This document shows, in pieces, positions 49,087 to 51,540 of a DNA stretch of 64,000 bases. Each line of letters opens with the position of its first letter. The first letter of the stretch is position 1. A model generated the notes under the pieces. That model did no database searches. It saw only the letters and a list, made by a program, of their open reading frames with translations, and was not told the origin of the DNA. The stretch comes from Pedobacter sp. SYSU D00535. Lineage in GTDB: Bacteria; Bacteroidota; Bacteroidia; Sphingobacteriales; Sphingobacteriaceae. The position numbers and the translations under genes are program-made. The stretch is taken from contig NZ_JAFEWD010000002.1 of the NCBI RefSeq assembly GCF_017355855.1, forward strand, positions 558,001 to 622,000, given 5' to 3'.

Positions 49087-49506
49087 TTATGTATTGTTTT
49101 TTATGAAGTCCTTCAGAATTTTCATAGTTGAATGGTCGGAGTTGAGGCACTCTTCTAGATACTCTTTCTGCTCTTCACTTTGAAAGTCATCGGCTGGTTT
49201 CCACTCGTCGGTGTTGATAACCTTGACAGCGAGCGGATGGTCCTCAAAGAAACGGGTCTTCAAGGGCTTGTCATATAACTTGATGAAATTGTGATGCGGC
49301 CTTTCCATTCCCTTTCTGTAGGCGGCAGTGATGAGATCCCTGTCACCCTCAAGCATCACGAGAATATTGCCCGCGGCAAAAATAAGAATGCCAGTGATTC
49401 CTTGCTCCCGAAATTGAGCACGGCTTAGGTCTACAGACTCCTGAAACTCCTCAAAGGGTACAATAGTAGTAGCTGAACTAACATATATGATTGCATGAAG
49501 ATCCAT
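49087..49506 (-). CDS. BLUF-like domain protein lacking key flavin residues
   Basis: A 139-residue protein from the ATG at 49506 (MDLHAIIYVSSA). The fold signature of BLUF blue-light sensors is present: IIYVSSA, QGITGILIF and VMLEG, with C-terminal helices. Aligned with AppA, photoactive Tyr21 is kept (Y8), but Asn45 is F32, Gln63 is V50, Trp104 is D89 and Met106 is P91. Flavin photochemistry depends on the Gln, so this is probably a light-insensitive derivative or binds another ligand. The frame is open to 49623 but homology starts at 49506. Confidence 0.8.
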   Translation of the reverse strand: MDLHAIIYVSSATTIVPFEEFQESVDLSRAQFREQGITGILIFAAGNILVMLEGDRDLITAAYRKGMERPHHNFIKLYDKPLKTRFFEDHPLAVKVINTDEWKPADDFQSEEQKEYLEECLNSDHSTMKILKDFIKNNT

Positions 49507-49653
49507 AACGCGGTCAGTTGAGTTGCTACTTCTACGAACGATTGTTGCAAAAGATACAGTTAAGGAAAAATAACGGGGAAGCTCGGAAATCGAAAGCGGG
49601 AACCAGAAATGGCTTCCTATCACTGTAAAACTGGGAAAGGATTGCCAAACTTC

Positions 49654-49983: not shown

Positions 49984-50013
49984 CTTGTTTTTAGATTTCA
50001 AATGCTATATTTG
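49984..50013 (+). promoter_or_regulatory. Promoter of the aminotransferase leader
   Basis: CTTG (49984-49987), an 18-base spacer, then TATATTTG (50006-50013), a perfect -7 element. Transcription should start about 50018-50021, at or next to the ATG of the first leader ORF (50020), i.e. a nearly leaderless message. Confidence 0.6.
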
Positions 50014-50019
50014 AAATTA

Positions 50020-50085
50020 ATGAATAAAAAAGCAGCATATATTATTTCAGTCGCAGTCGCACCTTGGCAGATTGACGGGAAATAG
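50020..50085 (+). CDS. Leader peptide 1 of tandem attenuator (21 codons)
   Basis: A short ORF starting at the predicted transcription start. The peptide begins MNKKAAYIISVAVAPW and ends QIDGK; residues 8-14 are Ile-Ile-Ser-Val-Ala-Val-Ala. The last codons hold TTGACGGG (50072-50079), of which GACGGG (50074-50079) is complementary to CCCGTC (50109-50114) in the 5' arm of the next terminator. Stop at 50083-50085, 18 bases before the terminator stem. A control codon run followed by an antiterminator segment that a terminating ribosome would cover is the usual logic of leader-peptide attenuation. Confidence 0.55.
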   Translation: MNKKAAYIISVAVAPWQIDGK

Positions 50086-50103
50086 TATATGGAAAAATAC
50101 AGT

Positions 50104-50137
50104 AAAAGCCCGTCCAGTCTTGGTCGGGCTTTTTTTA
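50104..50137 (+). terminator. Attenuator terminator 1
   Basis: A 9-bp stem AAAAGCCCG / CGGGCTTTT plus an inner CCA/TGG, then a U-run. It is inside the transcribed leader, 170 bases before the aminotransferase start, so it would stop most transcription unless antiterminated. Confidence 0.8.
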
Positions 50138-50148
50138 TTTAAAGCAAT

Positions 50149-50226
50149 ATGAAAACAATGTATCAATTCATTTACGCAGTGGCGATTGTGGCAGTGGTCG
50201 CAGGCATTACAGTCTTGACGGAATGA
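50149..50226 (+). CDS. Leader peptide 2 of tandem attenuator (25 codons)
   Basis: A second short ORF between the two terminators. Its start is MKTMYQFIY; residues 8-18 read Ile-Tyr-Ala-Val-Ala-Ile-Val-Ala-Val-Val-Ala, with 5 Val, 3 Ile and 4 Ala in 25 codons. TTGACGGA (50215-50222) lies just before the stop and is perfectly complementary over 8 bases to TCCGTCAA (50262-50269) at the 5' side of terminator 2. A ribosome stalled at the Val/Ile run would leave it free. As an alternative, it may be a tiny membrane peptide. Confidence 0.55.
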   Translation: MKTMYQFIYAVAIVAVVAGITVLTE

Positions 50227-50255
50227 TTTGATATTGCTATTCGAATGACAGTCAC

Positions 50256-50289
50256 AAGCCCTCCGTCAAAAACGGGGGGCTTTTTTTTT
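50256..50289 (+). terminator. Attenuator terminator 2
   Basis: An 11-bp stem AAGCCCTCCGT / ACGGGGGGCTT (one wobble pair), loop CAAAA, and a run of nine T, ending 18 bases before the aminotransferase ATG. So strong a terminator directly before a gene implies regulated read-through. Confidence 0.85.
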
Positions 50290-50306
50290 AACCAAATCAT
50301 AAAATC

Positions 50307-51494
50307 ATGAAAATTGAACCTTTAAGTTATTACAGTAAGCGCTCTCAAAATGTACCGACTTCGTTTGTGCGTGAAATTTTAAAAGTAGCCTCAGACCCCG
50401 AAATTATTTCTTTCGCAGGCGGCCTTCCTAATCCCGCTTATTTTCCTTTAATCGAATTGCAGAAGTGTGTTCAACAAGTATTCGAGAAACAGGGTACGAA
50501 AACACTTCAATATGCAGCAACAGAAGGATTTTTACCGCTACGGGAATTTATTGCCGAACGATATAAAGGCCTGTATGGTTTAGAAGTTTCACCATCACAA
50601 ATATTGCTGACCAACGGTTCGCAGCAAGGCCTGGACCTTGTCGGCAAGTTGTTTATTGATCCTGGAGACCGGGTATTAATGGAACGACCCACCTATCTGG
50701 GAGCTTTGCAGTGCTTTTCCATGTTTCAGCCGGTATTTGAGGAAATAACGCTCGAGGAAGAAGGTGTAGATCCCGTGGAATTGAGCAAAATACTTGTACA
50801 AACACAGCCAAAACTGTTTTATTGTATTCCTAACTTTCAAAATCCAACAGGCTTGCAGTACAGCCATAAAAGACGGCAGGAGATCGCAAAGGTGTTGTCT
50901 GCGACTTCTTCTATTCTAGTAGAGGACGACCCTTATGGCGCTATTAGTTTCAGCGAAGAACTTATCCCACCCATTTATAAATACCTCCCTCAGCAAACCA
51001 TATTATTGGGTTCGTTCTCGAAAACCGTTTCACCCGGCTTAAGAGTCGGATGGATTCTTGCCTCCGAAGAAATTATCCGCCGGCTCGCAGTAATGAAGCA
51101 GGCCTCAGATCTTCATTCTGCCAACTTATCCCAGCATCTTCTTTTCCAATTTCTCAAAACCTACAACTTCGATAATCACGTAGCGAAGATCAGAGCGGCA
51201 TACAAGGCTCAGAGAGATGTGATGATAGAAAGTATAGCAGCCTTTTTTCCGCCGGACGTTTCTTACACGAAGCCGAAGGGCGGCATGTTTACCTGGGTCT
51301 CATTACCGGAGAAAATACAAGCAAGGGCATTGCTGGAACGTGCCTTAAAAGAAAAAATCATTTTTGTTCCTGGAGATAGCTTTTACGTTACTCAGCCAGA
51401 TCTCCAGACGCTTCGACTGAACTTTTCAAATGTAGATCGGGAGCGAACACGGCAGGCAATGAAGAAATTGGGAAAACTGATTCTAAATTACTAA
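50307..51494 (+). CDS. PLP-dependent aminotransferase (LysN/ARO8-like, fold type I)
   Basis: A 395-residue class I/II aminotransferase of the 2-aminoadipate/aromatic type: FAGGLPNPAYFP, TNGSQQGLDL, PNFQNPTG, VEDDPYG, and the PLP lysine in GSFSKTVSPGLRVGW. There is no N-terminal HTH, so it is not a MocR regulator. Homologues are broad-specificity enzymes for 2-aminoadipate, Leu and aromatic amino acids. The Val/Ile/Ala-rich leader peptides suggest a role in branched-chain amino acid or alanine transamination (inference). Behind the tandem attenuator at 49984-50289. Confidence 0.9.
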   Translation: MKIEPLSYYSKRSQNVPTSFVREILKVASDPEIISFAGGLPNPAYFPLIELQKCVQQVFEKQGTKTLQYAATEGFLPLREFIAERYKGLYGLEVSPSQILLTNGSQQGLDLVGKLFIDPGDRVLMERPTYLGALQCFSMFQPVFEEITLEEEGVDPVELSKILVQTQPKLFYCIPNFQNPTGLQYSHKRRQEIAKVLSATSSILVEDDPYGAISFSEELIPPIYKYLPQQTILLGSFSKTVSPGLRVGWILASEEIIRRLAVMKQASDLHSANLSQHLLFQFLKTYNFDNHVAKIRAAYKAQRDVMIESIAAFFPPDVSYTKPKGGMFTWVSLPEKIQARALLERALKEKIIFVPGDSFYVTQPDLQTLRLNFSNVDRERTRQAMKKLGKLILNY

Positions 51495-51532: not shown

Positions 51533-51540
51533 TATCTTTG
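51533..51540 (+). promoter_or_regulatory. Promoter -7 element for cydAB
   Basis: TATCTTTG, matching TAnnTTTG, 32 bases before the cydA ATG at 51573. No -33 TTTG at the ideal distance. Confidence 0.5.

Follow-up and report, generated by a model that had tools for sequence, protein, structure and literature searches.

Attenuators that work through a leader peptide are textbook material and usually come singly, and the survey of Vitreschak (2004) is reportedly a key comparative treatment of them. Two sensing modules in series before one gene are known from tandem T-boxes. For the Bacteroidota, leader-peptide attenuation at amino-acid operons has already been reported (PMC9723704, in the part of the text available), and short ORFs reminiscent of such attenuation have been described there as well (PMC7366714, likewise in its available part). 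The closest precedent found for the arrangement described here is the mgtCBR leader of Salmonella (mgtM + mgtP), whose "tandem attenuators" were presented by Lee and Groisman in 2012 (PMC3641672, available portion). There, as proposed for our case, a single leader mRNA has two consecutive short ORFs, both of which control transcription into one and the same set of downstream genes, and mgtP answers an amino acid through its codons, as the present units would (same portion of PMC3641672). In the literature searched (mainly outside subscription journals) we found no case of two complete leader-peptide attenuators with intrinsic terminators placed in series and answering the same signal.

The leader studied here occupies positions 49984-50306 of the window (by which we mean the whole stretch of 64,000 nucleotides that was analysed) and runs up to the ATG, at 50307, of an aminotransferase gene. 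We think it very probable, judging from comparison of the sequences, that two ribosome-mediated amino-acid transcription attenuators in series control this one gene. All of the features that follow are on the plus strand. A promoter box of the Bacteroidota -7 type, TATATTTG (50006-50013), stands 6 nt upstream of the start codon of leader ORF1 (50020-50085; MNKKAAYIISVAVAPWQIDGK, 21 codons, with Val, Ala and Ile control codons), which has a counterpart in 10/10 distinct genomes. Beside the ORF1 stop codon, the antiterminator strand of unit 1 (segment 2, GACGGG, 50074-50079) pairs over 6 bp with CCCGTC (segment 3, 50109-50114) in the 5' arm of intrinsic terminator 1 (50104-50133, reaching 50140 with its T-rich tail), the stem of which has 12 pairs and one internal mismatch. 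RNAfold also predicts in this unit a protector (1:2) hairpin (50036-50091), in which 50036-50048 form 13 pairs with 50079-50091. Unit 2 consists of leader ORF2 (50149-50226; MKTMYQFIYAVAIVAVVAGITVLTE, 25 codons, with Val-rich control codons), its antiterminator strand TTGACGGA (segment 2, 50215-50222), which pairs over 8 bp with TCCGTCAA (segment 3, 50262-50269), and intrinsic terminator 2 (50256-50282, reaching 50290 with its T tail), whose 5' arm and loop contain that partner. Each of the two units in the window is thus closed by a GC-rich stem and a T tail. A simple terminator scan of the window listed terminator 2 and missed terminator 1, probably because of the internal mismatch.

The first-pass annotation proved correct at the coordinates that it gave, as we found on reading the sequence again, and the two pairings that it claimed are exact; the protector hairpin is an element that it had left unmentioned. 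Its statement that both targets lie in the 5' arm of a terminator is right for unit 1, but in unit 2 three of the eight bases (50267-50269) belong to the terminator loop. The two-unit layout is real and goes beyond chance: when 49984-50306 was shuffled 2000 times with its dinucleotides preserved and the same unit rule was applied, 1993 shuffles gave no unit, 7 gave one and 0 gave two. As to the promoter, TAnnTTTG, a consensus named in PMC9723704 (accessible part), is found 4-9 nt upstream of the ORF1 ATG in 7/10 genomes (the window genome and those of L009, L010, L011, L012, L038 and L040). Since the box TATATTTG is only 6 nt from the ATG in the window, the leader mRNA probably starts at the ATG or just before it, and, given the place of the box in these seven genomes, ORF1 would act as an almost leaderless sensor. 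Several trpE leaders have a TTTTTG-type box near their ATG, and leader peptides translated from near-leaderless mRNA may be common in the clade.

The doubling, which the earlier reading had reported for this one locus, holds in 10/10 distinct genomes found to have the leader, distant Bacteroidota included. Both units are present in 6/6 family genomes that have the gene (the window genome, G001, G002, G012, G034 and G179) and also in four Bacteroidota MAGs (L040, L045, L049 and L075). A scan of named genomes, covering the best 80 loci of at least 565 relatives, added Desertivirga xinjiangensis, with a leader identical to that of G001, and Bacteroidota MAGs. In total, 89 rows were examined, each with about 450 nt upstream. 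Two strong terminators occur in 10 of the 89, corresponding to 9 distinct genomes (window, L009, L010, L011, L012, L038, L040, L049 and L075; the leader of L039 is the same as that of L010 and was counted once), all of them with Val/Ala/Ile ORFs, and the automatic rule, pairing of at least 5 in two units, selected 8/89 rows. The remaining rows, including the Bacteroidota loci L044, L059, L070 and L119-L121, showed no unit pair in the stretch read. A single-unit version, for which the Chitinophagaceae MAG L045 had been a candidate, was discarded when the covariance model of unit 1 recovered the first unit of L045. The terminator of that unit ends about 350 nt before ORF2, which suggests, together with an insert in L012, that the units tolerate separation. 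The extra sequence between the units (L045 2454-2802; L012 about 1211-1309) shows inverted repeats by eye and may be a small mobile repeat.

The unit 1 model (R1), run over 60 relatives, returned five aminotransferase leaders with E-values from 1.5e-16 to 2e-18. Its first match beyond aminotransferase leaders (E 1e-4) was a WLW leader that precedes trp genes; the genome concerned has no close copy of the aminotransferase, and this leader had not been used to build R1. The many weaker matches, up to E 0.5, look like noise, and the one that was inspected (G014, E 0.005) has a terminator without an evident leader. Among the rows and the 60 relatives searched with R1, paired units were found only upstream of the aminotransferase gene. 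In the tree of the enzyme the carriers fall in two clades, one of eight rows (support 98/99), in which the MAG L040 lies inside the Sphingobacteriaceae-type group, and the other formed by L049 and L075 (100/99). One deep origin of the doubling was considered and abandoned, as a second tree, from which L094, L045, L063 and L066 were left out, needs two changes and a single change is enough in only 4% of bootstrap trees; gain and loss are not distinguishable in it. Two changes would be compatible with a single origin followed by losses, with two separate origins, or with transfer of the gene together with its leader.

Further evidence concerns the alternative pairing. The segment at the stop codon of each of 20 units was scored against the terminator arm of its own unit and against swapped arms. 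The mean with the own partner was 17.93, as compared with 13.71 (sd 0.69) for swapped partners, and 0/20000 permutations were as high. Taken alone, unit 2 gave 1/20000 and unit 1 gave 103/20000 (894/20000 before unit 1 of L045 was added), and the ten units of the window, L040, L045, L049 and L075 again gave 1/20000. At least 5 contiguous pairs are present in 18/20 units, the weak ones being unit 1 of L010 (3 bp) and unit 2 of L040 (4 bp). In 18/19 units no segment farther up the unit pairs equally well with the arm, a comparison in which five of the 19 units offer at most 8 such segments. In alignment A3 (unit 2, six genomes), 97.6% of the cells of the antiterminator helix are paired, and the covariation score is 0.375, whereas shuffling gives 0.197 (10/500 as high) and sliding gives no more than 0.158; two pairs are changed on both sides, a number matched by 189/500 shuffles.

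TTGACGGR, found before both stop codons in the window, had been put forward as a shared element. Its letters are not conserved in relatives, so we reject it as a conserved motif; what does stand is the complementarity, kept by compensatory change, of which TTGACGGR is one instance among changing complementary pairs. Its counterparts in unit 2 are TGGCGGGA (L012), TGTCGGA (L038), CCCGGGC (L045) and CACATAGGGC (L075), each with a matching arm, and a segment 2 that changes together with its arm carries more weight as evidence than an invariant motif would. The sequences thus indicate that the alternative antiterminator pairing is conserved by compensatory change. The sequence half of the refutation proposed in the first-pass annotation (loss of the ORFs or of the complementarity in close relatives) was tried, and the claim withstood it: relatives again have the ORFs, the two terminators and the complementarity, with compensatory changes. 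In 4/9 genomes (window, L009, L010 and L040) the stop segment of unit 1 prefers the arm of unit 2 to its own (18.5 versus 17 in the window), and cross-talk between segment 2 of unit 1 and the unit 2 arm is possible.

The codons of the leaders may point to the signal. In 447 leader residues from 20 units, Val is enriched 2.91x, Ile 1.93x and Ala 1.65x, while Leu (0.81x), Phe (0.38x) and Gly (0.29x) are below background, this background being taken from eight window genes and the leaders from ten genomes. Per leader (n=20), at least two Val are present in 19, at least two Ala in 18 and at least two Ile in 17. The stalling codons had been described as Val and Ile; both are indeed enriched, but Ala was missing from that description, and the leader codon counts give a signature of Val and Ala, with Ile in addition. 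Most of these control codons lie 4-12 codons upstream of segment 2, so a ribosome stalled on them would leave segment 2 free. The synonymous choice is also strongly biased (19 units), GTC making up 38% of Val codons as compared with 10% in the background and GCA 66% of Ala codons as compared with 28%, which may reflect codon choice or a constraint on the RNA.

Two quite different views of the ORFs can be weighed against these counts. The peptides are hydrophobic and have 17-31 residues, and one could see in them small membrane or type I toxin-like peptides with terminators of their own, the regulation of the aminotransferase being incidental. Membrane helices, however, usually have many Leu and Phe residues, which the sensing of codons would give no reason to expect, and here Leu (0.81x) and Phe (0.38x) lie below the background of eight window genes and only Val, Ala and Ile are raised; moreover, the peptide sequences diverge widely while the RNA complementarity is kept, and in the rows and relatives searched the paired units were seen only upstream of the aminotransferase gene. 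We regard this view as very improbable. Still harder to believe is that the arrangement is due to chance, or is a constitutive pair of terminators that shields the gene from transcripts arriving from upstream, the ORFs being meaningless. Terminators before genes are common, it is true, but in the window the gene ahead of the leader lies on the opposite strand and a promoter box precedes ORF1, and the 0/2000 shuffles, the pairing test and the codon enrichment all speak against it.

Returning to attenuation, one may ask whether the two units sense the same thing. A variant of our main reading, modelled on mgtCBR, would have a two-input gate, with unit 1 sensing Val and Ala and unit 2 mainly Val. 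It can appeal to the enrichments (V 2.31x and A 1.88x in unit 1, V 3.39x and A 1.47x in unit 2, with Ile at 2.21x and 1.71x, respectively), to unit 1, where 31/36 of the codons in positions 5-8 ahead of segment 2 are for Ala or Val, and to the longer Val runs of unit 2. Most leaders nevertheless hold all three amino acids and the shift between the units is modest, and we consider this variant unlikely, if worth keeping in mind. That both units read the same signal is the version towards which we lean, with some reserve.

Attenuators of this class appear to be ordinary for the clade, as the carriers of the aminotransferase have them before trpE and ilv genes too. A WWW leader with a terminator stands before trpE, singly, in 6/6 carriers of the family, although the stop-segment pairing in this control is only 3-5 bp by the same score, and a single Val/Leu/Ile leader precedes ilv genes in 3/4 genomes examined (G000, G001 and G002), the ilv region of G012 (L146) showing no leader by the rule. 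(In this comparison ilvB, hisG, trpE-type genes and PF01063 were identified by family search, and ilvD, trpD, trpF, trpB and trpA by translation or position.) The Trp leaders with terminators are those of L191-L196 upstream of trpE (WWW) and that of L182 (5097-5236, minus strand; WLW) before trp genes. The ilv leader attenuators are at about 10236-10384 in L143 (minus strand), near 12424 in L144 (minus strand) and near 4905 in L145 (plus strand), the last with a stop-segment complementarity to the terminator arm of 12 bases, G-U included. Short His-rich ORFs (HHVHLHHH, THHMHHTHRHH) upstream of hisG, at 1365-1424 in both L185 and L189, are probable his leaders, without a terminator by the rule used, as holds for the his leaders seen in G179 and G012. 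None of 17 loci scanned, the trp leader loci among them, reached an Rfam gathering score, Bacteroid-trp included. Among the leaders seen, doubling and the joining of Ala to Val and Ile are peculiar to the aminotransferase leader, and the trpE and ilv leaders of the same genomes being single, the tandem doubling is rightly called unusual.

These single leaders also bear on a further alternative, in which a ligand or the peptide itself, and not uncharged tRNA, stalls the ribosome. TnaC is a switch of this nascent-peptide arrest type, and the sequence YIISV followed by AVA, common to the unit 1 peptides of the window, L011 and L012, might be taken for an arrest peptide. It is absent, however, from the other unit 1 peptides and from all unit 2 peptides, in which only the class of amino acid is kept, and in these genomes the codons of the trpE and ilv leaders correspond to the respective product. 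We therefore consider arrest by the peptide very improbable and retain sensing of charged tRNA.

The folding predicted for the RNA left free by the ribosome at each stage (19 units, unit 1 of L045 being absent) agrees with attenuation in part. When the ribosome sits at the stop codon, 19/19 units form the terminator (P 0.83-1.0). With a stalled ribosome and the RNA ending at the 5' arm, segments 2 and 3 pair with P of at least 0.67 in 16/19 units (a figure that covers merely 3 and 4 pairs in unit 1 of L010 and unit 2 of L040, respectively), the lower values being those of L011 unit 2 (0.30), L038 unit 1 (0.55) and L075 unit 1 (0.10). At full-length equilibrium with a stalled ribosome, the terminator outweighs the antiterminator in 16/19 units, both window units included (the exceptions are L009 unit 2, L012 unit 2 and, for one of two ribosome edges, L075 unit 1), so read-through would have to be kinetic. 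In the window, the protector hairpin of unit 1 is predicted to hide the stop segment when there is no ribosome, and RNAfold gives the ORF1 RNA a strong self-fold (50014-50145, z -6.4). Without a ribosome, however, segment 2 is held upstream with P of at least 0.5 in only 11/19 units (0.22 in window unit 2) and the antiterminator forms anyway in 7/19, so that a protector step is not general. Folding of the ORF with its spacer goes beyond z -2 of mononucleotide shuffles in 8/19 units, and the unit 1 protector hairpin showed no column covariation on A2, whose alignment is poor there.

We can then picture the following scenario. RNA polymerase would start at the TATATTTG box, and translation of ORF1 would begin immediately, the mRNA being almost leaderless. 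If charged tRNA-Val, -Ala or -Ile were ample, the ribosome would reach the stop codon and cover segment 2, and terminator 1 would form; if it were scarce, the ribosome would stall about 4-12 codons before segment 2, which would be left to capture the terminator arm, and the polymerase would read on. At unit 2 the same test would be made again. Since termination at either unit would silence the gene, expression would need read-through at both, an AND arrangement that should leak little and respond steeply. The enzyme would be expected to supply Val, Ala or Ile, its gene being on only when these run short.

What the enzyme does is less certain. The gene (50307-51494, plus strand) encodes a PLP-dependent aminotransferase of 395 aa, LysN/KAT-II-like (PF00155, E 4.8e-38). 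Among the best-matching relatives of solved structure are a 2-aminoadipate aminotransferase (2egy, E 6.9e-88), a "multiple substrate aminotransferase" (1wst) and a kynurenine/alpha-aminoadipate aminotransferase (2qlr), and the relationship to the valine-pyruvate aminotransferase 3g7q is no more than remote (E 3.6e-10). None of the 25 NCBIfam matches listed (of 67) reached its cut-off, and the sequence thus leaves the substrate unsettled. The Val and Ala signature fits a transaminase that would exchange valine and alanine, as does AvtA of E. coli, which forms alanine with valine and pyruvate as substrates (available part of PMC7066862), and a valine/alanine-linked transaminase, of the branched-chain or valine-pyruvate type, is our best guess, although a tentative one to which we would give somewhat less than an even chance. 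The gene is rare, with matches at E of at most 1e-100 in 6/399 family genomes, at 1e-90 in 4/395 phylum genomes and at 1e-85 in 2/300 order genomes. The idea that it replaces a missing IlvE was set aside as unlikely, PF01063 being present in 13/13 genomes tested, gene carriers included; this family comprises IlvE and other enzymes, and its presence alone is not specific for IlvE.

Upstream of the leader lies a divergent gene with a BLUF domain (49087-49623, minus strand). Comparison of the neighbour genes across loci found none in common. In particular, cydAB is not part of a conserved regulated unit, cydA or cydB being beside the gene in 0/10 other loci (about 1.5 to 3 kb on most sides). That the aminotransferase is the single target, as had been assumed, agrees with this lack of a shared neighbour, but a gene on the same strand follows closely on its 3' side in the window, L009 and L049, so control of one gene only is not proven. 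In the window, an TATCTTTG box at 51533-51540, in front of cydA (51573), suggests that cydAB may have its own promoter; the terminator scan listed none on the plus strand in the interval from the aminotransferase gene to cydA, and read-through into cydA is thus possible.

The Val and Ala signature of the leader predicts the substrates of an aminotransferase that sequence alone leaves unsettled. The doubling in all ten genomes with the leader suggests that one stage is insufficient, and makes of this leader a natural system for asking what a second attenuator in series adds in terms of leak, steepness and noise. The full proposal, namely that an AND gate with the same signal at both steps has been kept doubled across Bacteroidota families, and that its Val and Ala codons report the balance of the two amino acids and so identify substrates of the valine-pyruvate type, is more speculative, and we offer it as an idea that is rather doubtful as a whole.

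The mechanism, by its class, is already known, and what is unusual here is the doubling, the codon set common to both units and the Val and Ala signature. The Rfam scan of the window gave nothing over threshold, and its lists contained no riboswitch or T-box family and no Trp_leader at the gathering threshold; the nearest leaders by E-value were Thr_leader for unit 1 (27.9 of 55 bits) and Phe_leader for unit 2 (30.1 of 55 bits), both sub-threshold. The Bacteroid-trp leader (RF01692) is also a peptide leader RNA of Bacteroidota, but is keyed to Trp and not to Val and Ala, and on unit 1 it scored 22.4 bits (E 5.2), far under its gathering score of 49. The ermB leader (PMC8274638, accessible part) likewise has two leader peptides before one gene, but works by translational attenuation induced by an antibiotic, whereas the present leader would couple transcription termination to amino acids. 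Tandem glycine riboswitches (PMC3766115, accessible part) share with it two modules in series, one signal and one gene, but these, like T-boxes, are RNA folds that bind a ligand or a tRNA without a leader peptide. With the single trp, ilv and his attenuators (for E. coli trp, see the available portion of PMC3641672) it has in common the leader ORF, the control codons, the alternative pairing and the intrinsic terminator, and it differs from them in being doubled, in joining Ala to Val and Ile, and in having segment 2 at or across the stop codon. The mgtCBR leader, finally, answers two different signals, ATP and proline, with additive effects, and its stem-loops are, according to its authors, not like intrinsic terminators (in both cases as given in the available portion of PMC3641672), whereas both units described here end in intrinsic terminators and largely share one Val/Ala/Ile codon set, with a modest shift towards Val in unit 2.
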